A stretch of DNA of 25,581 bases. Origin: a virus. The notes below the pieces were generated by a model. It had not been told where the DNA came from and made no database searches. It was given only the letters and a program-made list of their open reading frames with translations. Every line of letters begins with the position of its first letter. Within the stretch, counting starts at the first letter, position 1. Location: positions 1 through 25,581 of the IMG/VR virus record IMGVR_UViG_3300022602_000381; one strand, given 5' to 3'. Both the position numbers and the translations under genes were made by a program. Positions 1,894-25,581 of this stretch are shown here, piece after piece.

Positions 1894-4800
1894 ATGGCAA
1901 ATATTACCATTCCAAACCTGCCAGTAGCACTCAATGTGAGCGGTTCTGCTCAATTGATGATTGTGCAGAACAACACGGCCTATAGCGCGACCGTCAATCA
2001 AATCTCGGCTTTCAATACCAATTCAGGAACCGTGACTTCCATCACGGCTCAATCCCCGTTGTCTGGCGGCACAATCACGACGACCGGCACCATTGGCCTG
2101 AATACCAACAGCATCAACAATACGTATCTGGCCAACATGAACGCCCTGTCAATCAAGGGCAACAACTCGGCAAGCCCGGCGCAGCCGCAGGATTTGACTG
2201 TCGCTCAGACAATGAGCCTGCTCGGGGCCGCCCCTTTGGCGTCGCCCGCTTTCACCGGCAACCCGACCGCCCCCACGCCTGCGTCGACCGACAACAGCAC
2301 GTCTCTGGCGACAACCGCTTTTGTGAAGTCCTTGAACTACGGGTTCGGCACCGTCACGTCTGTGGCGACAGGAACCGGATTGACCGGCGGTCCCATTACC
2401 ACGACCGGCACGATCTCTATTGCCAATACGGGCGTCTCGCCGCAGACATATGGTAGCGCGACAACGGTTCCGCGCATTGCGGTCAATGCCCAAGGGCAGA
2501 TCACATCTGCCAACAACGTGGCGATCTCCATCACGCCGAGCCAAGTTGTCGGCCTCGGCACAATGGCAACGCAAAACGCCAATGCGGTTGCCATTACGGG
2601 CGGCACAATAGATCAAACCACTATCGGTGGCACGACGCCCGCCGCAGGCACATTTACAAATCTCACGTCGACGGGAACGGTGTCGCTCGGCACCATTACT
2701 TCCGGAACTTGGCAGGCGACGCCGATTGCCATTCTTTATGGCGGCACCGGCGCGACGTCGGCCTTGGCAGCCCGCACAAATCTTGGGGCGGCTGCATCCG
2801 GCGCAAACAGTGACATCACATCGCTTTCTGGGTTGACGACGCCATTGTCCGCTACACAAGGCGGCACAGGGTTTCCCTCATACACCACAGGCGATCTTCT
2901 GTATGCCGATTCGTCGACGACTTTGGCCCGCCTCAATGACGTGGCCGTCGGCAACGTTTTGCTTTCTGGCGGCGTCGGTGTCGCGCCTTCTTGGGGTAAG
3001 GTAAGCCTCTCAACCGTCGTGACCGGCGTATTGCCAACAGCAAACGGCGGCACAGGGCTCACGTCATTCACTTCTGGCGGCGCTGTCTACGCAACTTCGT
3101 CGTCTGTGTTGACAACGGGCACTTTGCCGGTGGCATCGGGCGGCACCGGCGTAACGACGTCGACCGGAACTGGGTCAGTAGTGCTGTCCAATTCTCCGAC
3201 GCTTGTGACGCCGACATTGGGTGTAGCTACAGCAACAAGCTACACCGCGACACTCGCGTTGTCGGTCTCGACGCCATACAATACTGGCGCATTTAATTAC
3301 GGGACGCTTGGCTATTCTGACACAAACATTTTCTCGTCGTTTGTGAATAGCGTCAATTCATACAACCAAATGGTGCTGCAGAATACCAATGCTGGGTCTG
3401 CGGCATCGACAAACTTCATTGTGTCAAACGACCAAGGTTCTTCAACCGGATACTTTGGCGAGTTTGGCATGAATAGCAGTGCCTTCACCGGCACAAGTTC
3501 ATTCAATCTTCCCAATGCCGTCTATCTTGATGCAACCAATGGTGACCTTGTTCTCGGCACCACAACGGCCAACGCGATCCGCTTTGTCGTCAACAGCAAT
3601 TCCACCGACGCGATGTCCATCTCTTCGGCTGGCGTTACGACGATTGCAAGTTTGGCGCTGTCGACGCCATTGCCTGTCACGTCGGGCGGCACAGGAACGA
3701 CGACATCGACAGGCACCGGTTCCGTCGTCCTGTCTAATTCTCCGACACTTGTGACCCCCGCGCTCGGGACGCCTTCCGCTTTGGTGCTTACAAACGCAAC
3801 GGGTCTTCCGTTAACCACAGGCGTTACGGGTACACTTGGAACATCCAATGGCGGTACTGGTTTAACATCGTTTACGTCTGGTGGCGCTGTCTATGCTTCT
3901 TCAGCATCTGTTTTAGCGACGGGAACTTTGCCCGTAACTGCGGGTGGCACAGGAACGACAACATCAACGGGAACCGGTTCCGTCGTCCTGTCCAATTCTC
4001 CGACACTTGTGGCCCCTGCGCTCGGGACGCCGTCATCCGTTGTCCTTACAAATGCTACGGGCTTGCCATTGACCACAGGTGTCACTGGCACATTACCTGT
4101 TTCTAATGGCGGCACAGGCGCAACTACACTTACCGGTTATCTTGTCGGTAATGGCGCGAGCCCGATCACTGCGGTGTCGACGATCCCCAATGCCGGATTG
4201 ACCAATTCATCATTGACAATTGGCACGACGAATATCGCACTCGGTGCCACAACGCTCACGTTAGGCGGCCTCACGACTGTCACGGTCACACAAGACCCTA
4301 CCGCAGCCCTGCAGCTCTCGACGAAGCAATATGTGGATAATCAGGTTGCGACGGTTTCCAACCAGACATTCCACACGGCTGTTGGATACGCGACAACAGC
4401 GGACCTCGGCAGCGTTACTTACAATAATGGCGCGTCTGGTGTTGGCGCTACCCTCACCAATGCTGGCACTCAAGCCGCTTTGACCATTGACGGCTACACG
4501 TTCACCGCGACCGACGTCACAAATGCAACCCGCGTTTTGGTCAAAAATGAATCCAACGGCGCATATAACGGCGCATACACGGTCACCAACCAAGGTTCGG
4601 GATCAACCAACTGGGTTTTGACCCGCGCTACTGACTTTAACACGCCCGGCTCTGGCCCGAACTACATTGAGACAGGCGCGTCATTCTTTGTGAATAATGG
4701 GACTACAAATGGCGCAACTGCGTGGGTGATGAACACAACCGGAGCCATCACTGTCGGGTCAACTACACTTACGTTCACGCAGACATCTTCTGCCGGTAAT

Positions 4801-7347
4801 ATTCAAGTTAACTCTCCGCTGATCAAAACGGGTAACACGATCAGCCTCGGGACGGTCGGCATTGGCAATGGCGGCACGGGTCAAACCACAGCATCCGCAG
4901 CATTCAATGCGCTGTCGCCTATCACATCGACCGGCGATATCATTATCGGTAATGGAGTTAACAGCGCCACACGCCTCCCTATTGGCTCCAATGGATATGT
5001 TCTGACATCCAACGGCACAACGGCAACGTGGGCTGCTTCTACGGGCGGCGTGACGTCTTTCTCCGGCGGAACAACTGGCCTTACGCCTAATACGGCAACC
5101 ACGGGTGCAATTACGCTTGCGGGTACGCTTGCTATTGCCAACGGCGGCACGGGACTTACGGCTCTTGGCACAGGCGTTCAAACTGCTTTAGGGCAAAACG
5201 TCACTGGGACAGGCGGGATTGTACTGGCAACTTCGCCAACGCTTGTAACTCCGGCTCTTGGAACTCCGTCTGCTGCTGTTCTTACAAATGCCACAGGGCT
5301 TCCATTAACCACGGGCGTTACGGGTACGCTTGGAACTTCAAATGGTGGCACAGGTTTAACAACCTTTACTGCGGCGAATAATGCCATATATTCCACATCT
5401 GCCTCAGTGTTGACGGCGGGAACATTACCAGTTTTAGCGGGCGGTACAGGTGTTACCACGTCTACAGGTACTGGAAATAATGTTCTTTCAAACTCTCCTA
5501 CTCTTGTAACTCCAGCCCTTGGGACGCCATCCTCGGCAGTTTTGACAAACGCCACCGGCCTGCCTCTCACAACCGGCGTGACCGGCGTGTTGCCGACAGC
5601 CAATGGTGGCACTAACCTCGCGTCGTTCACGTCGGGTGGCGCTGTATATGCGACATCGACTACAGTTCTTACAACCGGCACATTACCGATAACGGCGGGT
5701 GGCACGGGCCTCACATCATTCGGTACGGGTGTTCAAACTGCTCTTGGCCAGCCTGTCACTGGTTCAGGTAGCATTGTGCTGTCAAACTCGCCAACATTGG
5801 TAACGCCGGCCCTTGGAACGCCCTCCGCGGCTGTTTTAACCAATGCAACCGGCCTTCCATTATCAACGGGGGTGACCGGAACACTTGGTGTAACCAATGG
5901 TGGCACGGGAACATCAACCGCGTTTACTGCCGGCTCCGCAATTTTTGCCGGTGCTTCAGGCGTATACACACAAAATAATGCCAAATATTTTTGGGATAAT
6001 ACCAATTATCGTCTTGGCTTAAATACTGCCACGCCGATGACAACATTGACGGTTGTGTCAGCAACTCAAACTACTACACCGTCCGCTGCGCTCCCGGCTG
6101 GAACTGACTTATATATTGTTGGCGCGAATGCTGCCAATACACGCATTACACAAGATGCTTACGGAACGGGTGCTTACGGTGTATACACGGCGCGTTCTGC
6201 TCGCGGCACCGCAGCATCACCAACAGCGTCTCAATCTGGCGACTTTTTGGCTCAATTTACGGCCCGCGGATATGGCGCGACAGCATTTGGCGCGTCATCT
6301 ACCGGCTATTTTGCTTTAACTGCGGCTGAAAATTTTACCGATACTGCCCAAGGCACATACGCGTCACTTTATACAACAGCAACAGGCACAAACAGCGCGA
6401 CTGAATCATTCCGCGTGGGGCCATCAGGACAAATTGGGGTAGGCGCTGGGGCAATTGCTTACGGCAGTTCTGGGCAGTTTCTTACATCTGGCGGCGCATC
6501 GGCATCGCCATCTTGGACAACTGTTTCTTTGTCGACATTGACCGGCACGGTTCCTGTTGCCAACGGCGGCACCGGATTGACGTCCTACACGGTCGGCGAC
6601 CTCATTTACGCATCAGGCACCACGACGCTTTCCAAATTGTCTGACGTCGCCACCGGTGCGGTTTTGGTTTCCGGCGGTGTCGGTGTTGCGCCATCCTACT
6701 CGACGACGCCAACCGTCACGTCTTTGACGACGGGCAGCATCAGCAATAGCGGCAACATCACATTTACTGGGTCTGGGTCGTTTTTCCTTGCAGACTTCAC
6801 CAATGCGACATTGACATCGCGCTTTGCCTTCCAAACCAGCACAGCCAACAGCACGACCGGCATCTATGCCCTGCCGTCCGGAACGTCGACTGCTGCGTCT
6901 TGGCAAGCGACGAACAATTCCAACCCGACCAATGCATCAAAGGTTTTGATTGCAACAAACGGCACGACCGACGTGCAATTGGTGTCTGGCATCAACGGCA
7001 CAGGCACATATTTGCCGCTGTCGTTTTACACGAATGGCTCGGGCCAGTTTGCAATTAACACGTCTGGCGCGTGGGGTATTGGCTCGGTCGCAGCAGCCAC
7101 GGTCAATTATGGCACTTCCGGTCAAGCCTTTGTGTCCGGTGGCCCGTCAGCACCCCCGACATGGACAACGATTACAGCCGGTGCGACAGGCGGCGGCACT
7201 GATGCGATCTTCTGGAACAATGGCCAGACCGTTAATTCATCCTATAGCATCCCGTCAAACACCAACGCTGGCACGTTCGGGCCTGTTACGATATCTTCAT
7301 CCGCGACAATCACAATTCCTTCGTCATCAACATGGACTGTGGTGTAA
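1894..7347 (+). CDS. Giant repetitive tail fibre protein (1817 aa)
   Basis: This is a very long, almost charge-free protein rich in Thr, Ser, Gly, Ala and Asn, with no Cys in its repeat region: the composition of a trimeric beta-rich phage fibre. Residues 1-25 look like a short attachment head (MANITIPNLPV). A stretch near residues 108-150 has the classic fibre signature PLASPAFTGNPTAPTP. About fourteen GGTG turns follow, with five full copies of a ~35-aa core (SNSPTLVTPALGTPS...TNATGLPLTTGVTG). Three non-repeat modules are embedded: residues ~462-582 (VVLQNTNAG-like, beta-rich), ~826-967 (YATTADLGSVTYNNG...TNWVLTRATDF, a widespread tail-fibre module) and ~1365-1540 (YRLGLNTATP onward). The end (AIFWNNGQTVNSSYSIPS ... 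SSTWTVV) is a familiar fibre C-terminus, so the stop is natural. It is likely to be the main long receptor-binding fibre. Receptor unknown. Confidence 0.85.
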   Translation: MANITIPNLPVALNVSGSAQLMIVQNNTAYSATVNQISAFNTNSGTVTSITAQSPLSGGTITTTGTIGLNTNSINNTYLANMNALSIKGNNSASPAQPQDLTVAQTMSLLGAAPLASPAFTGNPTAPTPASTDNSTSLATTAFVKSLNYGFGTVTSVATGTGLTGGPITTTGTISIANTGVSPQTYGSATTVPRIAVNAQGQITSANNVAISITPSQVVGLGTMATQNANAVAITGGTIDQTTIGGTTPAAGTFTNLTSTGTVSLGTITSGTWQATPIAILYGGTGATSALAARTNLGAAASGANSDITSLSGLTTPLSATQGGTGFPSYTTGDLLYADSSTTLARLNDVAVGNVLLSGGVGVAPSWGKVSLSTVVTGVLPTANGGTGLTSFTSGGAVYATSSSVLTTGTLPVASGGTGVTTSTGTGSVVLSNSPTLVTPTLGVATATSYTATLALSVSTPYNTGAFNYGTLGYSDTNIFSSFVNSVNSYNQMVLQNTNAGSAASTNFIVSNDQGSSTGYFGEFGMNSSAFTGTSSFNLPNAVYLDATNGDLVLGTTTANAIRFVVNSNSTDAMSISSAGVTTIASLALSTPLPVTSGGTGTTTSTGTGSVVLSNSPTLVTPALGTPSALVLTNATGLPLTTGVTGTLGTSNGGTGLTSFTSGGAVYASSASVLATGTLPVTAGGTGTTTSTGTGSVVLSNSPTLVAPALGTPSSVVLTNATGLPLTTGVTGTLPVSNGGTGATTLTGYLVGNGASPITAVSTIPNAGLTNSSLTIGTTNIALGATTLTLGGLTTVTVTQDPTAALQLSTKQYVDNQVATVSNQTFHTAVGYATTADLGSVTYNNGASGVGATLTNAGTQAALTIDGYTFTATDVTNATRVLVKNESNGAYNGAYTVTNQGSGSTNWVLTRATDFNTPGSGPNYIETGASFFVNNGTTNGATAWVMNTTGAITVGSTTLTFTQTSSAGNIQVNSPLIKTGNTISLGTVGIGNGGTGQTTASAAFNALSPITSTGDIIIGNGVNSATRLPIGSNGYVLTSNGTTATWAASTGGVTSFSGGTTGLTPNTATTGAITLAGTLAIANGGTGLTALGTGVQTALGQNVTGTGGIVLATSPTLVTPALGTPSAAVLTNATGLPLTTGVTGTLGTSNGGTGLTTFTAANNAIYSTSASVLTAGTLPVLAGGTGVTTSTGTGNNVLSNSPTLVTPALGTPSSAVLTNATGLPLTTGVTGVLPTANGGTNLASFTSGGAVYATSTTVLTTGTLPITAGGTGLTSFGTGVQTALGQPVTGSGSIVLSNSPTLVTPALGTPSAAVLTNATGLPLSTGVTGTLGVTNGGTGTSTAFTAGSAIFAGASGVYTQNNAKYFWDNTNYRLGLNTATPMTTLTVVSATQTTTPSAALPAGTDLYIVGANAANTRITQDAYGTGAYGVYTARSARGTAASPTASQSGDFLAQFTARGYGATAFGASSTGYFALTAAENFTDTAQGTYASLYTTATGTNSATESFRVGPSGQIGVGAGAIAYGSSGQFLTSGGASASPSWTTVSLSTLTGTVPVANGGTGLTSYTVGDLIYASGTTTLSKLSDVATGAVLVSGGVGVAPSYSTTPTVTSLTTGSISNSGNITFTGSGSFFLADFTNATLTSRFAFQTSTANSTTGIYALPSGTSTAASWQATNNSNPTNASKVLIATNGTTDVQLVSGINGTGTYLPLSFYTNGSGQFAINTSGAWGIGSVAAATVNYGTSGQAFVSGGPSAPPTWTTITAGATGGGTDAIFWNNGQTVNSSYSIPSNTNAGTFGPVTISSSATITIPSSSTWTVV
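2860..2994 (+). repeat. Long-range fibre repeat, copy A
   Basis: This 45-codon block (GGTG, then TTGDLLYADSSTTLARL, then LLSGGVGVAPSW) is matched by 6565-6699, about 3.7 kb downstream in the same gene (GGTG, TVGDLIYASGTTTLSKL, LVSGGVGVAPSY). The two copies flank the central repeat array and embedded modules like a pair of brackets, suggesting that the fibre grew by insertion between duplicated ends. Confidence 0.75.
3187..5900 (+). repeat. Degenerate in-frame repeats inside the giant fibre
   Basis: A ~35-aa core with the pattern SNSPTLVTPALGTPS followed by VLTNATGLPLTTGVTG occurs in full at 3733, 3991, 5227, 5488 and 5782, with a truncated copy at 3187. The spacing is not constant: 258, 1236, 261 and 294 bases, because a large unrelated module separates copies two and three. 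Each core is followed by an NGGTG turn. The peptide is nearly identical between copies, but the DNA differs at many third positions. These are protein-level structural repeats, not a CRISPR or an insertion element. Confidence 0.85.
6565..6699 (+). repeat. Long-range fibre repeat, copy B
   Basis: This is the partner of the block at 2860-2994. The frame, length (45 codons) and most residues are the same, with the shared landmarks GDL(L/I)YA, TTL and SGGVGVAPS. It lies just before the C-terminal region of the giant fibre. Confidence 0.75.
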
Positions 7348-14086: not shown

Positions 14087-14617
14087 ATGGACCTTTTGAA
14101 ATCATTCGGCCCACTTATTGGGTCAATTGCACCAACAATTGCGACCGCGCTTGGCGGCCCTGTCGCTGGCATGGCTGTCAAAGCTATCTCGGGCGCTTTG
14201 TTCGGCCACGAGAACGCTTCCGAAGACGACATTATGGCCGCTCTTGCCAATCCTAACGGCGATCAGCTTGCCGCGCTTAAAAAGATCGACGCCGACTTCA
14301 AGGTTCAAATGAAGTCGCTCGACATCGATCTCGAGCGCATCTCTGAGGCTGATCGCGATTCGGCCCGCAATATGGAAATCCAGACACGCGACTGGATTCC
14401 TCGCGTCCTTGCGGTTGGTGTCACGCTCGGGTTCTTTGGCATCGTGGGTTACATTTTGCATTATGGCCTGCCACCGACCGGCGGCGAAGCGCTTCTGATG
14501 TTGATCGGTACGCTTGGCACGGCGTGGACAAGCGTGATGGGGTTCTATTTTGGGTCTTCGGCTGGTTCCAAGCAGAAGACGGATGCTTTGACGGCGGCTC
14601 TCGGCAATGGAAAATAA
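14087..14617 (+). CDS. 3-TM holin of the gene-transfer-agent release type
   Basis: The N-terminus (residues ~5-38, LIGSIAPTIATALGGPVAGM) is a long non-polar Gly/Ala stretch. A charged helix follows (HENASEDDIM to RISEADRDSARNMEIQTRDW). Two clear spans come next, residues ~105-126 and ~134-156, joined by a short LHYGLPPTGGEA loop. SARN...TRDW.P just before the first clear span is characteristic of the GTA 3-TM holin family. AGGGG at 14076-14080 is its ribosome site. It overlaps the endolysin by 11 bases, the usual holin-endolysin coupling. The expected role is forming membrane lesions that let the muramidase reach the wall. Confidence 0.8.
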   Translation: MDLLKSFGPLIGSIAPTIATALGGPVAGMAVKAISGALFGHENASEDDIMAALANPNGDQLAALKKIDADFKVQMKSLDIDLERISEADRDSARNMEIQTRDWIPRVLAVGVTLGFFGIVGYILHYGLPPTGGEALLMLIGTLGTAWTSVMGFYFGSSAGSKQKTDALTAALGNGK

Positions 14618-15119
14618 TTTTGAACAGTGCTTTGCCCTCGTTCTGCGGAATGAAGGTGGCTACGTCGACAACCCGCACGATCCGGGTGGGGCAACTAATC
14701 TCGGCTGCACCAAGGACACTTGGGAGGCGTGGGTCGGCCATCCTGTGACCAAGGACGACATTAGGGCGCTGACGCCCGCCGACGTCATGCCGCTTTACAG
14801 GGCAAAGTATTGGAACCCGATTAAGGGCGACGATCTGCCATACGGAGTGGACTATGCGGTCTTTGATTTTGCCATCAATTCGGGGCCGTCGCGGGCCGCC
14901 AAAACCCTTCAGCAGGTACTCAATGTGGCAGCAGACGGACAAATCGGCCCCGCCACGCTTGCTGCTCTTGAAACGGCAAACCCTCGCGATGTTGCAACGC
15001 AAGTCTGTGACGCCCGATTAGCCTTTTTGCAAAGCCTCCCAACCTATAGTATGTTTGGCGCGGGGTGGTCGCGTCGGGTTCTTGAGGTCGAGACCGAAGC
15101 GTTCAAGATGGTAGGGTAA
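14607..15119 (+). CDS. GH108 N-acetylmuramidase endolysin
   Basis: This 170-aa protein cleaves the glycan backbone of peptidoglycan. Residues 11-30 hold the family signature LVLRNEGGYVDNPHDPGGAT, with E16 the expected catalytic acid. Residues ~40-75 (ALTPADVMPLYRAKYWNP) and ~84-110 (DYAVFDFAINSGPSRAAKTLQ) continue the muramidase fold, and the last third (AADGQIGPATLAAL to SRRVLEVE) matches the C-terminal peptidoglycan-binding part usually paired with it. The length is normal for the family. No signal peptide is seen, so release depends on the holin. The start lies inside the holin gene with only a weak GGCGG upstream, consistent with translational coupling. Confidence 0.9.
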   Translation: MENNFEQCFALVLRNEGGYVDNPHDPGGATNLGCTKDTWEAWVGHPVTKDDIRALTPADVMPLYRAKYWNPIKGDDLPYGVDYAVFDFAINSGPSRAAKTLQQVLNVAADGQIGPATLAALETANPRDVATQVCDARLAFLQSLPTYSMFGAGWSRRVLEVETEAFKMVG

Positions 15120-15121
15120 CC

Positions 15122-15835
15122 ATGTCACTGACTTATTCCACCTACGTCCAGCAGATCGCCACGATGGCCGTGGTGCCGGTCACCGACCCCAATTTCACGA
15201 TCATCATCCCGTCGATGATCGACTATGCCGAACTGCGGATGCAGAGGGATTTGGACTTTCTGTCTACCCAGACGCAGAACACGTCATACTCGTTCACAAT
15301 TGGCAATAACACTCTGACGATCCCGACGTCGGCCTACGTCACGCTTCAGACCATTGAGACATTGGATTCATCGGGCAACAGCACACCTCTTCTGCCGGTG
15401 CCAAAAGAGTTCATTCAAAATGTCTATGGCGGAAACTCGACGACCGGCGTCCCGCAATACTTTGCTGTCTATGGGGGCGACGCCGCAACGGCTGGTTACA
15501 CGTCCCAAAACATCATTGTGGGGCCAACGCCTAATCTCGCCTACACTGCCCGCCTCACTGGGACGATCCGTTCCGCGCCGCTCTCGGCCTCAAATCCGTC
15601 GACATATATCTCGACCTTCTTGCCTGATCTCTTCATCATGGCGTCGATGATTTATATCTCGGCCTATCAGCGCAACTTTGGCCGCATGAACGATGATCCT
15701 CAAATGGCTCAATCGTATGAAGGCCAATATCAGGCTCTGAAAGCAAGCGCATTGATTGAAGAAAACCGCAAGAAATTTGAAGCGGCTGCGTGGACCTCAT
15801 ACTCGCCCGCTCCGGCGGCGACACCGACGAGGTAA
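15122..15835 (+). CDS. SU10-like head-tail adaptor protein (237 aa)
   Basis: The N-terminus has YVQQIATMAVV, then a FTIIIPSMIDYAELRMQRDL helix: the PxxIxxAExRxxRDL type pattern of phage adaptor/connector proteins that bind the portal. Residues ~52-150 are beta-rich (SYSFTIGNNTLTIPTSAYV, PVPKEFIQNVYGG), and the final third is helical (LPDLFIMASMIYISAYQRN, SYEGQYQALKASALIEENRK). This is the order expected of an SU10-type adaptor ring. It lies two bases after the endolysin stop and three bases before the nozzle gene, a pairing common in short-tailed phages. The family call is by pattern recognition. Confidence 0.75.
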   Translation: MSLTYSTYVQQIATMAVVPVTDPNFTIIIPSMIDYAELRMQRDLDFLSTQTQNTSYSFTIGNNTLTIPTSAYVTLQTIETLDSSGNSTPLLPVPKEFIQNVYGGNSTTGVPQYFAVYGGDAATAGYTSQNIIVGPTPNLAYTARLTGTIRSAPLSASNPSTYISTFLPDLFIMASMIYISAYQRNFGRMNDDPQMAQSYEGQYQALKASALIEENRKKFEAAAWTSYSPAPAATPTR

Positions 15836-15838
15836 TCC

Positions 15839-18106
15839 ATGCCGCATAATATGGTCAAACTTCAACCTGGAGTCGACACCAATGCGACGTTGGCGGTCAA
15901 TCAAGCAAACTATTCTGTATCAAATTTGATACGGTTTATTTACGACCGTTCACAATTGGGCTTGGCCCAAAAGTTAGGTGGCTGGGTTGCGTATTATCAA
16001 TCTGCTTTGTCGTCAAAAATCCGCGCTCTTAAAGGATGGGCTGATCTTAATGCTATTAACCATCTTGGAATTGGCGCTGAATCTTCTTTGAATGTTCTGA
16101 CGAACAACAATTTGGTCAATATCACTCCGCAAATCACGACAACAAATTCAAGCCCTAATTTCTCAACAACAAGCGGGTCAAATATTATCCAAGTGATTGA
16201 TTATGGTTTAATCGGCTCAACGCTTGATTACGTGAATTATGTCACTCCCGTCACCATTGGCGGAATTGTGCTTACGGGTCCGTATCCATTATACACGGCA
16301 ACCGTAGCAATCACCGCTGCGACAACTGGGGTCAGCGGGACAGGAACGACGGCAACCATTACCTTTGGCGCAGTGGCCGCTGCAGCGCCTGTGGGGTCAA
16401 CCATAATTGTGTCGGGTGTCACGCCTGCGGCATATAATGGAACATGGGTCGTAACAGCATCCTCGACAACCTCGGTCTCATTTGCCAGCACCGCAACAGG
16501 CGCTCAAACGGTTGCCGGAACGGTTCAATACGGGACAAACTATTCAATCCAAGCGGCGAGCAATGCGACATCTACCGTGTCAAATGCCGGTGCGTCGTAT
16601 TACTTCACGACGGCAAGCGGCTCATCTGTTGTGAGCTGCACATTTGCAAATCATGGGTATACCGCAGGAAATCAATTTTATGTTGGTGTCCCAACAACTG
16701 TCGGCGGTGTGACGCTTTCTGGCCTCTATACGGTTTTGTCGGTTTCATCATCCAGCGTATTTACGTTCTCTGCTCAAAATACCGCGACGAGCACCGCAAG
16801 TGTGTATATCGACAGTGGAAACATCAATGCCACATTTTATGTTGCTCAAGGACCTCAGCCTACTAGCACAGGTTTCGGCGTTGGGCCATATGGCGTGGGC
16901 GGTTTCGGCGTTGGGACGACGCAACCCTCTGTGGCCGGAACGCCTATCACGACAACCGACTGGACACTCGACAATTTCGGGCAAGACTTGATTGCATGCC
17001 CGGCGGGCGGCGCGATTTATTATTGGCAGCCAAGCAGTCAATTGCAAAACGCCCAAATCGTTGGCGGCAATGGCCCTCTTGTTAACAGTGGCGCATTTGT
17101 CGCGATGCCAGAGCGGCAAGTTGTGGCGTATGGCTCATCATTCACATTATCACCCGATCCTCTTTTGGTGCGCTGGTGCGACATCGGCGACTTCACGAGC
17201 TGGAATGCAACGCCGACAAACCAAGCAGGGTCATATCGCATTCCAACCGGTTCAAAGATTGTTGCTGGCATTCAAGGTCCTCAACAAGGTTTGCTTTGGA
17301 CCGACCTCGACCTTTGGGCAATGCAGTATGTGGGTGCGCCGCTTGTTTACGGGTTCAACAAAATTGGTTCAAACTGCGGAGCAGTTTCTCGCCATTGCGT
17401 GGGGCAACTTAACGGCGGCATCTACTGGATGTCACAAAAGCAATTCTTTATGTCTACGGGATCGGGACCGCAAGCAATTCCATGCCCAATTTTTGATGTG
17501 ATATTCCAGAACATCAATACCGCATATTTTTATAAAGTATGCTGTGGCGTGAACTCGCAATTCAATGAAATCACTTGGTATTACCCATCTGCGTCCTCGA
17601 CGGAGAATGATAGCTATGTCAAGTACAACACCGTACTCCAGCAGTGGGACTTTGGTTCTCTTGGCCGCACTGCTTGGATTGATCAGTCAGTTCTCGGACC
17701 CCCCATTGGCGCTGGGTCTGACAATTACCTTTATCAGCACGAAGTAGGTAACGACGCGGCAAGCGGAACGCAAACGACTGCAATGCTGTCATCGTTCCAG
17801 ACCGGCTATTTCCAATTGAATGAAGCGGACAACTTGATCTTCATTGATCAGATTTGGCCGGACATGAAATGGGGCACATATAGCGGCAACCCCAATGCGA
17901 CGGTTCAGATCACGTTTTATGCGACCAATTATCCGGGCGACACGCCAATCCAGTATGGCCCATACAGTATGACGCAAGCGACAGAGTATATCTCCGTCCG
18001 CATCCGCGCACGTCTTATGTCAATTGCTGTATCGTCAAACGATGTTGGCACTTTCTGGCGTCTCGGCGCAATCCGCTATCGCTACCAAATTGACGGGAGG
18101 TTCTGA
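15839..18106 (+). CDS. P22 gp10-like tail nozzle / DNA-stabilisation protein (755 aa)
   Basis: Residues 1-100 (MVKLQPGVDTNATLAVNQAN, NLIRFIYDRSQLGLAQKLGG, INHLGIGAESSLNVL, NNLVNITPQ) and residues ~350-755 (NFGQDLIACPAGGAIYYWQP, MPERQVVAYG, GLLWTDLDLWAMQYVG, NGGIYWMSQKQFFMSTG, LGAIRYRYQIDGRF) follow the gp10-like beta-propeller family that forms the lower tail of short-tailed phages. Between them, residues 110-325 hold two tandem beta repeats, the first split by a separate ~78-aa module (154-231). GAGG precedes the ATG by about 8 bases, and its stop overlaps the next gene (TGATG). A tail nozzle role is likely; the inserted domains may decorate its outside. Confidence 0.75.
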   Translation: MPHNMVKLQPGVDTNATLAVNQANYSVSNLIRFIYDRSQLGLAQKLGGWVAYYQSALSSKIRALKGWADLNAINHLGIGAESSLNVLTNNNLVNITPQITTTNSSPNFSTTSGSNIIQVIDYGLIGSTLDYVNYVTPVTIGGIVLTGPYPLYTATVAITAATTGVSGTGTTATITFGAVAAAAPVGSTIIVSGVTPAAYNGTWVVTASSTTSVSFASTATGAQTVAGTVQYGTNYSIQAASNATSTVSNAGASYYFTTASGSSVVSCTFANHGYTAGNQFYVGVPTTVGGVTLSGLYTVLSVSSSSVFTFSAQNTATSTASVYIDSGNINATFYVAQGPQPTSTGFGVGPYGVGGFGVGTTQPSVAGTPITTTDWTLDNFGQDLIACPAGGAIYYWQPSSQLQNAQIVGGNGPLVNSGAFVAMPERQVVAYGSSFTLSPDPLLVRWCDIGDFTSWNATPTNQAGSYRIPTGSKIVAGIQGPQQGLLWTDLDLWAMQYVGAPLVYGFNKIGSNCGAVSRHCVGQLNGGIYWMSQKQFFMSTGSGPQAIPCPIFDVIFQNINTAYFYKVCCGVNSQFNEITWYYPSASSTENDSYVKYNTVLQQWDFGSLGRTAWIDQSVLGPPIGAGSDNYLYQHEVGNDAASGTQTTAMLSSFQTGYFQLNEADNLIFIDQIWPDMKWGTYSGNPNATVQITFYATNYPGDTPIQYGPYSMTQATEYISVRIRARLMSIAVSSNDVGTFWRLGAIRYRYQIDGRF
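16298..16531 (+). other. Inserted beta module within the nozzle gene
   Basis: Codons 154-231 of the gp10-like protein. The block (TGVSGTGTTATITFGAV, PVGSTIIVSGVTP, YNGTWVVTASSTTSVSF) splits a larger repeat: the half before it (110-153) and the half after it (232-250) together match the intact repeat at 257-325. A similar block is at 417-629 in the gp4-like gene. Phage blocks of this sort are sometimes matched to the FCCH domain of ubiquitin-activating E1; I have not run that match. Confidence 0.6.
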
Positions 18107-19101: not shown

Positions 19102-19590
19102 ATGGAACCTAAAATCAGACTTGGAACGCCAGAGGACGAAGCCGCAATGCTGGAATTGGCAATGCGGGCATGGGAAGAAAACGGCATTAAAGACGTCAAC
19201 CCGACCAAGATGTTGGGCATGATTCGTCCCGCACTTTATCTTTGGCAGGGCCTTGTCGGCATTATTGGGGAACCGGGTAAAAAGATTGAAGGCGCGGTCC
19301 TTTTAAGAATGAGCCAAATGTGGTATTCCGACAGTTGGATGCTTGAGGAAAAGGCCATTTTTGTTGACCCAGAGTTCCGCAGCGCAAAAGGGGGCCGCGC
19401 TCGCAAACTTTGTGAGTTCTCAAAGAAGGTGGCCGATGAGTTGAACATTCCGTTGATTATCGGCGTTCTGTCCAATCACCGGACGGAATCCAAAGTTCGC
19501 CTTTATGAACGCTCTTTTGGCCCCCCAGCCGGAGCTTTCTTCCTGTACAATGTCCGCACCGGACACGAAGAGCATATGACGGAGCATTAA
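19102..19590 (+). CDS. GNAT-like N-acyltransferase in the virion module (162 aa)
   Basis: The start KIRLGTPEDEAAMLELAMRA is a typical GNAT first strand and helix. The central strands (LVGIIGEPGKKIEGAVLLRM, LEEKAIFVDPEFRSA) lead to RSAKGGRA at residues 93-100, a degenerate form of the acyl-CoA pyrophosphate loop, then the helix RKLCEFSKKVADELNI and strand PLIIGVLS. The length fits a single GNAT domain. It sits between two structural genes with 1-base gaps, as GNAT genes do in several SU10- and P22-like phages. The substrate is unknown: it could modify a virion or host protein, or it may be a fold reused as a structural part. An AGGGA ribosome site lies upstream. Confidence 0.7.
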   Translation: MEPKIRLGTPEDEAAMLELAMRAWEENGIKDVNPTKMLGMIRPALYLWQGLVGIIGEPGKKIEGAVLLRMSQMWYSDSWMLEEKAIFVDPEFRSAKGGRARKLCEFSKKVADELNIPLIIGVLSNHRTESKVRLYERSFGPPAGAFFLYNVRTGHEEHMTEH

Positions 19591-19591
19591 A

Positions 19592-22500
19592 ATGGGTGGC
19601 AAGACCGGCACGACGGCCCAGAGCGTTCAAATTCCACCAGAGGTTCTGGCTCGGTATAATGCCGTCAATGCCAGTGCTCAAAACGTCGCGCAGACGCCGT
19701 TCCAACAGTATAGCACAAATCCTAACGCTTTTGTTGCACCTTTGAACGAGCAGCAAAATGCGGGCATCGCGAATATCAACCAATACGCCGGTGCCGCACA
19801 GCCAGCTTATAACGCCGCTATGCAAGGCACGGCGCAAGCCTATGGCGGGTTGACACCGCAAGGCTTCCAGCAAGGCGTTGCGGGATATATGAACCCGTTC
19901 GTCAACCAAGCTATGGGCGCGACCGCTGCACAGCTCCAAAATGTGAACCAGCAGCAGCAACAGCAATTGCTGGGCAACACAATCCAGCAAGGCGCATTTG
20001 GTGGCGACCGTGGCAACATCGCGCAGGCCGCGCTGATGAACCAGCAGAACCTCGCTCTTGGTAACACGTTGTCCAATATGGCCAACCAAGGCTACCAAAA
20101 TGCCGCGCAGAATTATCTTGCTGGCACCGCGCAGCAGGGCGCTTTGGCAAACCAATTGGGCAATCTCGGCACCGGCGCACAGACCGCAGGACTCGCAGGA
20201 GCGCAGGCTCAAATTGGCGCTGGCACTCTCGGCCAACAGACGCAGCAGGCTGGCCTCACCGCCCTCTACAATCAGTTCTTGCAGCAGCAAGCCTACCCAT
20301 TCCAGACGGCGCAGTTCCTCGCGAACATCGCCGAAGGCACTGGCGCGTTGTCTGGCTCGACGACGACCACGACGCAACCGATGCCGTTCTTCTCGGACCG
20401 CCGCTTGAAAGAAGACATCAAGCGCATCGGCGAGACGGACGAGGGCTTGCCGATTTACAAGTTCAAATACAAGGGCGATCCGTCCGAGCAGACCCATGTC
20501 GGTTTCATGGCCGACGAGGTCGAGAAAATTCATCCAGAAGCGGTCGGCGAATCGCATGGATACAAGACGGTCGATTACAACCGCGCGGCGAAGTATGCCG
20601 GTGGCCTTGTTTCAGAAGGCGGCGCAGTGGGCCCGCAGCATGAAGGCATGGGATTTGCGGCTGGCGGCCCTGCATATGATTTTTCATATGACCCCCAATA
20701 CAGCCCTTACGATCCCGATAACATTCGGAATATCATTGCCCGCCAACAAGCTATTTATCAAAATGCAAGTTCTGGGCAAAACGCGGGAAGGAATATTTCA
20801 GGTACGCCCGGTTTGGCGTCTTATGTCCCGCAATCCCAGCCGCAGCAGTATCAATTGAAGACTGCTGGCGCTCCTCCCGCAAATCCGCAATCCGGTTTGT
20901 CGCAAGTGATGAATGCGGCCAATGCAGCCCAAGAGGGCGCTGACTTCTTTGGCACAGACAAGTCGGGTCATGAGGGTCTTGGCGCGGCGGCATACAATGC
21001 GCTTAAAAAGTTCCAACAGGATCGTCAGCAAAAAGCTAATTCTGCTGCAACTGCTCAAGATGCCCAGCGCTATGACAGCGTAAATCAACAAGCCCGTGGC
21101 GGCCTCGTTGGTTACGCAGATGGCGGCGATGTCCCGTATGAGAAAGACGAAGACAAAAAGCTCGACATTCCAGAAGAAAACAATACACATGGCCTTGTCA
21201 CGGCGTCTAATCCAACAGGCGCGACGTCGCAAAGCGGTTTAGGGCTGGGTCAGGCAGCCGGTCTTGCAAAAGGACTTGGGACTCTTGGTGCAGACGTAAT
21301 CGGGGGGACCGCTTCTCTTGGAACAATGGGCGGCGATCTTCTTTCTATTTTGCCGTTCTTGAGCACTGGCGGCGTCGCCGGTCGCGAGCACCATGACGGG
21401 AGTGACGGCAATGTGGTTGGCGACAGCGCACCACAAGACCCTTCTGATGAATTTGTGAACCGTTACTGGAACCGCCACGTACAGCAAGAAAGCGGCGGCA
21501 AGCAGTTTGATGCGAACGGCGCACCGTTGACGTCTTCTAAGGGCGCTGTCGGCGTTTCTCAAATCATGCCTTCTACAGGGCCCGAAGCTGCAAAGCTCGC
21601 TGGCGTCGACTGGGACGAGAACAAGTTTGCCAACGACCCTGAATACAATCAGACGCTTGGCAAGGCTTACCTGAAATCGCAATACAACAAATATCATGAT
21701 CCAATTCTGGCGTCCGCCGCGTATAACGCAGGCCCCGGAAACGTCGACGCGGCACTGGCAAAAGCGTCGTCGCAAGGCGGCTCGTATATGGACTACCTTC
21801 CTCCGGAAACGCAGAAGTACGTCTCGTCGATCTATGGCATGAAAGCGCCAAAGAGCGGTGGCCTTTCCCTTGGAAATTTGTTTGGAATTAACGAGGCCAA
21901 CGCGCAGGAAGCGCAGCCGCAGGGCGGCCTCTATCAACCATACAAGCCTTCCAATTCAGACATTCTCTTGTCGGTGCTTGGCGGCATCGGTTCAATGGCG
22001 TCGTCAAACAGCCCTTATCTTGGAGCCGCTTTGTTGCAAGGCATTGGCGGTGGCGCAAAAACATACGCAGGCTTGCAGCAGCAGGGCATTGAGCGCATGA
22101 GGGCTCAATCCGAAGTGCAGGCGCGTAACCTTGAAGTCCTCAAATATTATCAGGGCAATTTTGTCCCCGTTCCTGGACCGAATGGCGAGAGGATGTATCA
22201 AAACAAAGTCACCGGAGAAAAAATTACGCCGGATCAATACAATTCCATCATGAGTGGAATTGCCACCCAAGTTACAGGCGGCGGCGGTCTTCCTAATGCT
22301 GCTGCGATGGCCGGAAAAACTGGCCAAACCGCGACAACGCAAGCGCAGCCTGCTGGCGCGACAACAACACAGGCGCAACCTGCCGGAGCTACGGCCACGA
22401 CAAATGCGTCGCCACAGGCACCGAGCCCTGAAGAGATCGCGCAACATCAAAACGATTATAATTGGCTCGCAACGCAGGCTAACAAGTATCGCACGGAAGC

Positions 22501-23626
22501 GCCCAACTGGATCGGCGTAAACCCAGAGTATGCCACTTGGCTCACAAGCCAAGCCAAGGAGTTTCAAGATAGGGCGAACGCTCTTGCTAGTACTGAGCAA
22601 GCTACACCGTTTGGGTCCAAATTTGTTAACCGTCCTGGTTCCAAAGCTCCGCAAGATAATGAACCCGCTCCGATTACTGCGGATACACCTCGCTCGACTG
22701 TTGATCCAAACACGGGCAAAGTCATGACTAATGGCAAGATTGATTTGGGGCATCAAAGGACAGGTGGATACGCCCCTGATATTTATCCTGACAATGCTTT
22801 GCCGACCGGAGAGGACGCTAAAGTTAAACTTCAAGCGACAACAAGTTTGCCTCTTGAAGAAGAATTTTTGGCGACATCGCAAAATACCCAAATGGGTATT
22901 CAGCCTCTTTTAAAATTTGCTGCGGCATCCAAAAGGATTGAATCAGGTGGAACTCGTCTGACACAGGCGGAGTACGCCAATATTCTTTCTGGCCTTGGGT
23001 TAACAAATGCGGCCAATGATGTAATGAGCAAGCCTAATGTTGAGGCCGCATACACTGCAACAAAAGCGGCATTGGACAGCGCTATTACGCAATCTCAAAC
23101 AGCGTTCTCCAAACCCACTCAATCTGAATTTGCTAAAGTTCAGGACAAAGGGTCGCCCAACATTGATAACCCATCGGGGTCAAACCACAGCCTTATCGCC
23201 AGTCGGCTGGGCGCTCAACTTTGGCAGAACGCTCTTCGCCATGATTGGCTGCAAGCAAAAGCGCAAGGCGTTCAAAACTTTGCGGGCTTCCTTGATCGCT
23301 GGCGCGTTCTTAATCCAATGGAACAGTTTGAAGATTCCGCAGACAGGCTTATTGGCAATTTCAAAGGCATGGATTTGCCTTCGCCTGATCGTATCACGGA
23401 AGGTTCTGTCTATGTTGTTCCAAGCGCAAAAAGCAAAGACAATAAAAGCGAGACAACACGCCAATATGCTCTTAATCAAGGTTTGAAACCTGGAGATATT
23501 TTTGTCGCGCACAATGTTCAGCATGATTCCAAAAAAGGAAAAGTGCTTTTTGACTTCGCGCCTGTAAATCCGGACGATACTTATAGGACAATGTTGAGTG
23601 CGCCTAGCGTTCAATACGGAGAATAA
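19592..23626 (+). CDS. Large ejection protein with internal S74-like autoprotease and lytic transglycosylase domains (1344 aa)
   Basis: Residues 1-260 are Gln/Asn/Ala/Gly-rich and helical (NQQQQQQLLGNTIQQG), like internal virion proteins. Residues ~267-335 hold an S74 intramolecular-chaperone signature: S268 in FSDRRLKEDIKRIG, then HVGFMADEVEKIHPEAVG and TVDYNRAAKY. Residues ~548-600 are Gly-rich and hydrophobic (ADVIGGTASLGTMGGDLLSI). Residues ~625-747 are a GH23/SLT lytic transglycosylase: E633 in QQESGGK, GAVGVSQIMPST, and YNAGPGNV at 711-718. Residues ~787-830 are hydrophobic again, followed by a coiled coil. A TTQAQPAGAT repeat lies near 920. It probably enters the cell envelope during ejection and opens peptidoglycan. 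CGGAG precedes the ATG. Whether S74 cleaves here is unknown. Confidence 0.8.
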   Translation: MGGKTGTTAQSVQIPPEVLARYNAVNASAQNVAQTPFQQYSTNPNAFVAPLNEQQNAGIANINQYAGAAQPAYNAAMQGTAQAYGGLTPQGFQQGVAGYMNPFVNQAMGATAAQLQNVNQQQQQQLLGNTIQQGAFGGDRGNIAQAALMNQQNLALGNTLSNMANQGYQNAAQNYLAGTAQQGALANQLGNLGTGAQTAGLAGAQAQIGAGTLGQQTQQAGLTALYNQFLQQQAYPFQTAQFLANIAEGTGALSGSTTTTTQPMPFFSDRRLKEDIKRIGETDEGLPIYKFKYKGDPSEQTHVGFMADEVEKIHPEAVGESHGYKTVDYNRAAKYAGGLVSEGGAVGPQHEGMGFAAGGPAYDFSYDPQYSPYDPDNIRNIIARQQAIYQNASSGQNAGRNISGTPGLASYVPQSQPQQYQLKTAGAPPANPQSGLSQVMNAANAAQEGADFFGTDKSGHEGLGAAAYNALKKFQQDRQQKANSAATAQDAQRYDSVNQQARGGLVGYADGGDVPYEKDEDKKLDIPEENNTHGLVTASNPTGATSQSGLGLGQAAGLAKGLGTLGADVIGGTASLGTMGGDLLSILPFLSTGGVAGREHHDGSDGNVVGDSAPQDPSDEFVNRYWNRHVQQESGGKQFDANGAPLTSSKGAVGVSQIMPSTGPEAAKLAGVDWDENKFANDPEYNQTLGKAYLKSQYNKYHDPILASAAYNAGPGNVDAALAKASSQGGSYMDYLPPETQKYVSSIYGMKAPKSGGLSLGNLFGINEANAQEAQPQGGLYQPYKPSNSDILLSVLGGIGSMASSNSPYLGAALLQGIGGGAKTYAGLQQQGIERMRAQSEVQARNLEVLKYYQGNFVPVPGPNGERMYQNKVTGEKITPDQYNSIMSGIATQVTGGGGLPNAAAMAGKTGQTATTQAQPAGATTTQAQPAGATATTNASPQAPSPEEIAQHQNDYNWLATQANKYRTEAPNWIGVNPEYATWLTSQAKEFQDRANALASTEQATPFGSKFVNRPGSKAPQDNEPAPITADTPRSTVDPNTGKVMTNGKIDLGHQRTGGYAPDIYPDNALPTGEDAKVKLQATTSLPLEEEFLATSQNTQMGIQPLLKFAAASKRIESGGTRLTQAEYANILSGLGLTNAANDVMSKPNVEAAYTATKAALDSAITQSQTAFSKPTQSEFAKVQDKGSPNIDNPSGSNHSLIASRLGAQLWQNALRHDWLQAKAQGVQNFAGFLDRWRVLNPMEQFEDSADRLIGNFKGMDLPSPDRITEGSVYVVPSAKSKDNKSETTRQYALNQGLKPGDIFVAHNVQHDSKKGKVLFDFAPVNPDDTYRTMLSAPSVQYGE
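20390..20596 (+). other. S74 (endosialidase-type chaperone/autoprotease) domain
   Basis: Codons 267-335 of the 1344-aa protein. The SDxRLKxxI motif is intact (S268, D269, R271, L272, K273, I276), followed by Y.F.Y.GD, H302-VGFMADEV and P315-EAV, and it closes with VDYNRAA. In fibres this domain is normally C-terminal and cuts itself off at the Ser-Asp bond of the motif. Here about 1009 residues follow it. Confidence 0.8.
21464..21832 (+). other. Lytic transglycosylase (SLT/GH23) domain
   Basis: Codons 625-747 of the 1344-aa protein. The expected catalytic Glu is E633 in QESGGK. The family blocks GAVGVSQIMPST (651-662) and ASAAYNAGPGNV (707-718) follow in the right order and spacing. The domain cuts the MurNAc-GlcNAc bond of peptidoglycan with anhydro-sugar formation. 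Confidence 0.85.
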
Positions 23627-23628
23627 AG

Positions 23629-25581
23629 ATGGGTGTTCTTAATTATGACGGCTCTCCGGTAACCGATGACACGACGGCATCGATTGGCCCAGATTACATT
23701 GCTCCTGCTGCGCCGGTGTCATCATTCCCGTCTGTAAAAACAGAACGCGGAGAATTGTCTTATAACCCTCCTCCTCAGCCCGAGAAGGATTGGTCGCAAG
23801 TACCTTGGAGTGAAGTCGCGTCCAGCGGGTGGAATAATGCTTATGAGAGCGCCAAAAAACAACTCATGGCTATTCCAGAGGCCATTTATAATTACCCGCA
23901 GACTGGCGAAGCGTTGAGCCAGATCGGAACTGGTATTAATTCTTTGGCGCGTGAAGCCGGATCAAAAGACCCGCGCAACATTGCGTTGAGGGCCGCCATG
24001 GGCGTCCCTCCAGCGGTGCCTGATAGTCCTGAAAAGAAAGAGGCGGATCGCGCTGCATTGTATGCGGCAGGAAAATCGGTAGCTGAACCCTTCACAAATA
24101 TTTATCAGGCTACGCAAGGGAACACGGGGCCATTAAAGAAATCTCTTGGCACCGATCCTTTTTCAACGATTGCCCCGGTTGCGGAGTTGGCGTCTATGGG
24201 ACTTGGCGCTGCTGGAGAAGCGGCTGAAGGGCTGTCTAACGCCGCGCTTGGGGCGAGAACATTGAAAGGACTTAGCACGGCAACGAGCGCCCTTGATCCG
24301 GCGCAAGCAATTTTTGGCACGACAGGGTGGGCAGCGTCAAAAGTTGGCGGCCCTTTGGCAAAGTCTGTTGTTTCCACTGCGGCGAACATTCCTCCTGAAT
24401 CGCTTGATTTTGCTTACGCAGCAGGAAAAATGACGGGCAAAGATGCGGATGCCGCTCAGAACGCTTACAGAAGTTGGGCAAACGGACAAGGCAATTTGAA
24501 TGACTTTTCGGGCAGCGTCAGGAACGCATTTCAATCATTGAAAAATGATGCCTACAATCAGTTTGCATCAAAAAAACAAAATTTGATGGCGCTTTCTCAA
24601 GATGCTGATTTGGACCCAATTTATGGTTCAATAGCAGACGCTCGCGCAAAATTGAGCGCACAAGGCGAGGGGCTTGAGGCTTCCGATCAGGCACATGATG
24701 CACTCACTAACGTACAAAACAATATCAATGAAAGGTTTTTGAATACTGATCCAAATTATCAAGGGCGGAAAATTCAGAGCCTTGATAATTTGAAACAAGA
24801 CCTTTGGGAACAGATTCAATCATATCCGCCAGGCAGTCGTGCGCGGAATGCTTTGTCTCAGGTTTATGATGGTATCAAAAAATCAATCCGGAGCGTTTCT
24901 CCGGAATACGATGATTTGATGAGTGACTATCAGTCTTTGCAAGACAACTTGAACACAATCGCAAAGTCGCTCGGGACGAATGACAAAGTTTCTGCCACTA
25001 CGGAGCTGAATAAATTTGTTAACAACATCAAAACCGACAAGGGACGTCAGTTAATCGGGCAGCTCTCTCAGAAAGACCCGACAATCCCCTTTGCTGTCGC
25101 AGGAGCAATTCACAATGCTGGCCATACTGGGGGCATTCTCGGCGGCGTTGAAGCTGCTGCATCATCGGGGCTCACAACTGGCGCTCTGTATCATCTTATG
25201 AATGGGAACTATGCAACCGCCGCTGCTTTGGCTGCTGCTATCCCACCTTCAATCGTGATGCAGTCACCACGCACTTTGGGGAAAATCTCTTATGGTGCGG
25301 GCAAGTTTGCTGGCTCGGCACCAGGGCAAGCGGCAGGATTGGCAAAGGACGCTGCGTCAAAAAGTGTTGGAGCGTCTCCATATGTTCAATCTTTTGAACA
25401 AGCAAACCCAGCTATTACCGGAAATGAAAATCAACAAGCCGCAGGCGGTCGCATTGGCCGTGCTACAGGGGGCAAAATCGGAAAATTAAGCGCGTCAGCC
25501 AAAGCAGCAAGATTGATCGCTATGGTCGACCGCATTAAAAAGGAACAGGGCAACGAAACGAAGCCCTTGTTAAACCTTGAC
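23629..25581 (+). CDS. Large ejection-like internal virion protein (partial, 651+ aa)
   Basis: ATG 23629 lies two bases after the previous stop with GGAG about 8 bases upstream, and the frame stays open to the window edge. The start is MGVLNYDGSPVTDDTTASIG, then WSQVPWSEVASSGWNNAYES. Long helical, Ala/Gln/Asn-rich segments fill residues ~60-480. Residues ~485-545 are hydrophobic and Gly/Ala-rich (GAIHNAGHTGGILGGVEAAA, ATAAALAAAIPPSIVM), a plausible membrane-entering region. The last ~45 residues have GGRIGRATGGKIG, then AKAARLIAMVDRIKKEQGNE and LLNL. That closing pattern recalls ejection-type proteins of alphaproteobacterial prophages, so the true stop is probably close beyond the edge. No enzyme motif is seen. 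Confidence 0.7.
   Translation, partial: MGVLNYDGSPVTDDTTASIGPDYIAPAAPVSSFPSVKTERGELSYNPPPQPEKDWSQVPWSEVASSGWNNAYESAKKQLMAIPEAIYNYPQTGEALSQIGTGINSLAREAGSKDPRNIALRAAMGVPPAVPDSPEKKEADRAALYAAGKSVAEPFTNIYQATQGNTGPLKKSLGTDPFSTIAPVAELASMGLGAAGEAAEGLSNAALGARTLKGLSTATSALDPAQAIFGTTGWAASKVGGPLAKSVVSTAANIPPESLDFAYAAGKMTGKDADAAQNAYRSWANGQGNLNDFSGSVRNAFQSLKNDAYNQFASKKQNLMALSQDADLDPIYGSIADARAKLSAQGEGLEASDQAHDALTNVQNNINERFLNTDPNYQGRKIQSLDNLKQDLWEQIQSYPPGSRARNALSQVYDGIKKSIRSVSPEYDDLMSDYQSLQDNLNTIAKSLGTNDKVSATTELNKFVNNIKTDKGRQLIGQLSQKDPTIPFAVAGAIHNAGHTGGILGGVEAAASSGLTTGALYHLMNGNYATAAALAAAIPPSIVMQSPRTLGKISYGAGKFAGSAPGQAAGLAKDAASKSVGASPYVQSFEQANPAITGNENQQAAGGRIGRATGGKIGKLSASAKAARLIAMVDRIKKEQGNETKPLLNLD

Follow-up and report, generated by a model that had tools for sequence, protein, structure and literature searches.

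A short interior S74 domain with an invariant Ser-Asp-Lys motif in fused phage ejection proteins, and its possible self-cleavage

S74 domains are known from the maturation of trimeric fibres and of MYRF. In the viral stretch analysed here (the window: 25,581 nucleotides, IMG/VR record IMGVR_UViG_3300022602_000381), such a domain lies in the middle of an ejection-type protein, ahead of a lytic transglycosylase, and the question is whether it cuts the chain in which it sits. A sequence-only reading of this DNA had proposed that it does, as the autocatalytic maturation of an internal virion protein and not of a fibre. The observation behind this proposal is confirmed. Pfam places Peptidase_S74 (PF13884) on residues 268-318, beginning at Ser268-Asp269, with 45.8 bits and an E-value of 7.3e-12 (cut-off 22). 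Further downstream, SLT (PF01464) matches residues 631-729 with 54.7 bits and an E-value of 9.1e-15, also above the Pfam cut-off, and this profile match and the presence of the catalytic Glu motif (ESG at 633) together make the domain a predicted lytic transglycosylase. The proposal's coordinates and arithmetic were likewise right: the span 20390-20596 corresponds to residues 267-335 and leaves 1009 residues downstream of residue 335, Gln and Ala each make up 18% of the head, and a cut after Ser268 would divide the 141-kDa full-length protein into products of 268 aa (27.6 kDa) and 1076 aa (114.0 kDa). The interpretation built on this observation is, taken as a whole, partly supported.

The gene order in the window, consisting of adaptor, gp10-like protein, GNAT and ejection genes, is as expected for the P22 gp7 position (Table 1). 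Positions 4-385 of the 392 positions of PHROG 4287, annotated 'DNA ejection protein' and representing a protein family with S74 at its end, align to residues 1-331 of the window protein (E 1e-13), and PHROG 6121, 'virion structural protein', matches residues 80-334. The assignment of the window protein as an ejection-type virion protein is supported, and a protein of this type whose interior S74 retains both residues of the Ser-Lys dyad bears out the earlier exclusion of a fibre. The presence of a separate endolysin-like gene fits the SLT as a virion enzyme, not a lysis enzyme. Elsewhere in the window, a 1817-aa ORF (1894-7347) has no match in Pfam or PHROG, and an antisense ORF of 366 aa that overlaps the head region (19457-20557, minus strand) is probably spurious, arising from coding bias.

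Table 1 Features of the fused ejection protein and of its neighbourhood in the window.
Feature	Position	Strand	Basis or remark
Separate endolysin-like gene	14607-15119		PHROG 315
SU10-type adaptor protein	15122..15835	+	Pfam
P22 gp10-like packaged-DNA stabilisation / tail protein	15839..18106	+	PHROG 3287
GNAT-like gene directly upstream, as in related podoviruses	19102..19590	+	
Fused ejection protein, 1344 aa	19592..23626	+	ORF and Pfam domains; relatives
Gln/Ala-rich head, residues 1-267	19592..20392	+	Related to PHROG 4287 and 6121; predicted all alpha-helical
Short-class S74/ICA domain, residues 268-335; alpha4 cut down to 8 residues (329-336)	20393..20596	+	
Putative scissile Ser268-Asp269 (TCG GAC)	20393..20398	+	Invariant in 164/164 distinct domains
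Lys273, catalytic-dyad Lys by position (S+5)	20408..20410	+	Spacing as S587/K592 of MYRF
Gly/Ala-rich linker with GG[LV] motifs, residues 336-630	20597..21481	+	
SLT lytic transglycosylase domain (predicted), residues 631-729	21482..21778	+	ESG 633, GVSQIMP 654, AYNAG 710
C-terminal region, residues 730-1344	21779..23623	+	No known domain (Pfam, PHROG)
Next gene, 651 aa up to the window end, in the place of a further ejection protein	23629..25581	+	No family match

In cultured podoviruses, head and S74 form a separate gene of 270-480 aa that stops just after S74. PAE2, EBPR podovirus 2, phiGT1, RHph_I3_18, H6/1, AH02 and Vibrio phage 199E37-1 all carry, at the gp7 position, an S74 gene ending no more than about 20 residues past the domain. 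The gene that follows is a 'peptidoglycan hydrolase' in EBPR podovirus 2 (gp28, after the S74 gene gp27), a protein with a FlgJ-like domain (peptidoglycan hydrolase) in phiGT1 (phiGT1_18, after phiGT1_17), and an annotated 'internal virion protein/exolysin' in phiM5 (phiM5_28, after phiM5_27); at locus L134, the SLT itself is carried by the ORF following the S74 gene. According to its annotation, phiM5_27 was detected in the phage particle proteome. Since the stand-alone S74 gene in podoviruses often precedes a separate hydrolase or injection gene, the window protein is best read, from these comparisons, as two adjacent genes fused into one, the first for head and S74 and the second for wall hydrolase or injection. 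Residues 1-335 would correspond to the stand-alone head and S74 protein, and the remainder to the next gene in those phages, the ejection gene with the wall hydrolase.

The fused architecture is common to dozens of environmental phages. Relatives are encoded on 45 IMG/VR contigs, and the fused form is also found in MW202675; a search of genome contigs for relatives returned two loci only. An assembly artefact or a wrong frame was ruled out, as dozens of independent contigs have the same architecture. The complete S74-bearing ORFs collected, counted once per distinct domain, comprised 51 fused forms, 14 of which have two S74 copies, and 32 stand-alone forms, of which about 30 belong to the ejection type. 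Across 35 fused representatives, counting the window protein, S74 was present in 35/35, SLT in 5/35, and another hydrolase in a further 5/35 (Phage_lysozyme2 in two, Glyco_hydro_108 in two and Hydrolase_2 in one), with no enzyme domain that Pfam recognises in the remainder. Because S74 is universal in this set but SLT is not, the enzyme part appears to be swapped among relatives while head and S74 stay constant. The sequence-only reading had held that the fused SLT is what makes cleavage functionally meaningful, and this part of it is not supported in that form: SLT belongs to a set of exchangeable wall hydrolases, and its fusion is not conserved across homologues. A linker motif, GG[LVA] and often GG[LV]xxRxxYxxGG, recurs in these proteins (window 20597-21481, L030, L038, L094 and L195), usually right after S74 and ahead of the enzyme, and is a possible assembly or packaging signal. 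One fused relative lies in a cultured bacterium: in a prophage-like region on a 185-kb contig of Bradyrhizobium cenepequi CNPSo 4026 (L136), an ejection-type protein of 1141 aa joins S74 to Phage_lysozyme2, which offers a practical test system.

The number of S74 copies varies within the family. In the two-copy fused relatives (L030, L034, L036, L039, L042, L078, L085, L089, L094 and others), the second S74 stands before the enzyme region. SDxxxK is intact in both copies, and the two-copy state changed at least eight times on well-supported branches of a larger head tree. A head-only search, combined with the earlier loci, yielded 124 distinct head-bearing ORFs, of which 117 have S74, four are cut by a contig end and three are complete without S74. 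The S74-less clade comprises L193, L195, L197 and L209 on four contigs, all with the head joined directly to the linker. In its three complete members (L195, L197 and L209), the STTTTQ tail of the head runs directly into the GG linker, the long downstream region is kept, and no S74 was found elsewhere on the stretch examined; L197 carries Phage_lysozyme2. The support of this clade is 100/100; on the head tree it joins L172 (97/92), which has S74, within a larger clade of S74 carriers. Given this nesting, the absence of S74 is most simply a secondary loss. In view of this clade and the repeated two-copy changes, S74 behaves as an insertable and dispensable module, present in 0, 1 or 2 copies. 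As the nested clade keeps the fusion without S74, cleavage is not required throughout the family, and the fusion seems to work uncut in these members.

Where S74 is present, its catalytic residues are strictly kept. The earlier reading had pointed to the Ser-Asp motif in homologues as a check, and this check came out in its favour: S-D-x-x-x-K was invariant in 164/164 distinct full domains of S74-bearing homologues, second copies included, a count in which part of the later locus set was found with a pattern containing the motif, and the 45-contig loci were found by patterns without S268, so that the invariance there is no selection effect. Loss of the Ser was looked for in S74-bearing homologues and none was found. 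Among 103 diverse domains, S268, D269, K273 and G280 were the only fully invariant well-filled columns. The Ser codon itself varies among relatives (TCC, TCG, TCT, TCA and once AGC; TCG at 20393 in the window). Given that the full S74 domains of the 45 contigs all keep the motif and were found independently of S268, the S74 match in the window is far beyond chance. A profile search of 398 Pseudomonadota genomes served as a control set, and here too nearly every full-length S74 domain had retained S and K, with one apparent K loss (L264, possibly decayed) and a change of D to S or G in about ten domains. Since Ser and Lys are near-universal among cellular S74 domains too, their constancy does not prove that the window protein cuts itself and may be a trait of the whole S74 family, not a sign of activity. 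The cellular S74s with Ser or Gly after the catalytic Ser (L228, L233, L239, L240, L244, L247, L262, L263, L277 and L279) would, if active, cut Ser-Ser or Ser-Gly, and several of them have a long C-terminal helix-like tail. The same short, alpha4-less S74 class also ends bacterial chromosomal proteins (L270, L272, L275, L280-L282, L284 and L285), most of which have a basic or Gly-rich stretch before S74 (GGGGRR-SDIALKHD).

We also modelled the domain. AlphaFold2 (AF2) gave a confident S74 core over residues 268-330 (pLDDT 92-96), limited alpha4 to residues 329-336, and predicted, with low to middling confidence, a long all-helical head without beta-helix. A profile built from the short domains matched the solved S74/ICA proteins 6f45 (E 4e-5), 3gud and 7dc3, and the best Foldseek match of the S74-only model was the MYRF ICA domain 7dc3 (probability 0.96, TM 0.54, E only 0.1). 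The PDB search with a single S74 sequence gave chance matches only, the PDB profile search with the whole fused protein gave no matches, and the fold search with a 345-residue head and S74 model gave only chance matches to long helices. From the model and the profiles, the window domain is predicted to have the S74 fold with the trimerisation part absent. In every ejection-type S74, beta4 is followed within 25 residues by the end of the chain or by a break of the type GG, GxG, GS or Pro, and the C-terminal trimerising coiled coil (alpha4) is absent from the window protein and from all ejection-type relatives found. As an internal control, the tail-fibre S74s encoded on these phages' own contigs (L020 and L071) do have the alpha4 helix. 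The S74 signature, which had earlier been called complete, is therefore complete in its Pfam core but not in its alpha4 coiled coil, and the beta-helical stalk that usually precedes such a domain is lacking too. In MYRF, the precedent for interior ICA cutting by a Ser-Lys dyad (S587/K592), the alpha4 coiled coil drives trimerisation, cutting occurs only in trimers, and alpha4 mutations block cutting (PMC8326128).

Because the Ser-Lys dyad is never lost, we favour self-cutting as the likeliest explanation, and we put the probability that the short-class S74 cuts its own chain at S268/D269 on assembly, once several copies have assembled, at about 0.5. Self-cutting is plausible but not obligatory; the literature searched yielded neither cleavage data on a short-class S74 nor a paper testing or discussing S74 cutting in ejection proteins. 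The cut between S268 and D269 would yield two products, a helical head of 268 aa and a chain of 1076 aa comprising S74, linker, transglycosylase and C-terminal region, and in stand-alone relatives the same cut would trim only a C-terminal chaperone of about 65 residues. We infer that cutting would need assembly, with trimer contacts from the helical head, or assembly on the portal or ejection complex, replacing alpha4. P22 ejects about 12 copies of gp7 (PMC8402733), so neighbouring chains would be at hand. If cutting happens, it would probably be tolerated or useful rather than essential. More tentatively, the short S74 could be, as a class, a coiled-coil-independent self-cutter of fused ejection polyproteins during assembly, one copy giving two parts and two copies three, with its activation tied to assembly of the ejection complex and not to fibre trimerisation.

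The missing coiled coil can also be taken at face value. On this main rival reading, S74 may be a folded assembly module that does not cut, serving in self-association, in chaperoning the low-complexity head or in docking near the portal, with the protein acting at full length. The copy number of 0, 1 or 2, shifting repeatedly on the head tree, and the persistence of the S74-less clade as one chain agree with such a module, to which we assign a substantial though minority chance; an invariant Ser and Lys in ejection-type domains are hard to explain on structural grounds alone, but both residues are near-universal in the cellular controls too.

A variant of the self-cutting explanation accepts the same cut and differs in its purpose: cleavage would be part of a cycle of quality control or chaperoning of the head, as in fibres, with the enzyme as a passenger that gives the cut no special role. 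This would suit an S74 that is more constant than the enzyme (35/35 fused representatives, versus five with SLT and five with other hydrolases) and that a cut would free alone in stand-alone relatives. In the fused proteins, however, the cut would also part head from enzyme, unlikely to be without consequence, and the S74-less clade does without any such cycle; we give this purpose a chance slightly below that of the non-cutting module. Production of the enzyme part from an internal start, without proteolysis, is very improbable. A GTG at 21413 (residue 608) does stand just before SLT with a GGAG-like site upstream, but the 4-base site occurs at six start codons of the ORF, the true one included, and looks like chance. 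What sets this locus apart is a short interior S74 that lacks the trimerising helix, keeps a fully conserved dyad and, across the fused proteins, occurs in 0, 1 or 2 copies. If it cuts, phages self-process ejection polyproteins, and ICA cutting can be independent of the coiled coil; otherwise the conservation of the dyad calls for some other reason.

T7 gp16, which is not known to carry an S74, and other virion transglycosylases resemble the window protein in placing a wall hydrolase on an internal or ejection protein. The transglycosylase of T7 gp16 is at the N-terminus (PMC8954989), unlike that of the window protein. The stand-alone podovirus S74 ejection or structural proteins (PHROG 4287/6121; phiGT1_17, phiM5_27, EBPR podovirus 2 gp27 and PAE2_13) share with the window protein the gene position, the low-complexity head, the short S74, SDxxxK and the absence of alpha4; these proteins end with S74 and leave the wall hydrolase to a separate gene, whereas the window protein is one chain. 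The fibre S74/ICA domains (K1F endosialidase, GA-1 gp12, the T5 L-shaped fibre and others) have the same catalytic core, SDxxxK and beta1-beta4 fold, yet they sit at the C-terminus behind a triple beta-helix and finish in a trimeric coiled coil; the window S74 has none of these features. The MYRF ICA domain (7dc3), the best structural match, is like the window S74 interior in a larger protein and has a Ser-Lys dyad at S+5, but in MYRF the alpha4 coiled coil is of full length and the stalk is beta-helical, where the window protein has an 8-residue alpha4 and a helical upstream part.
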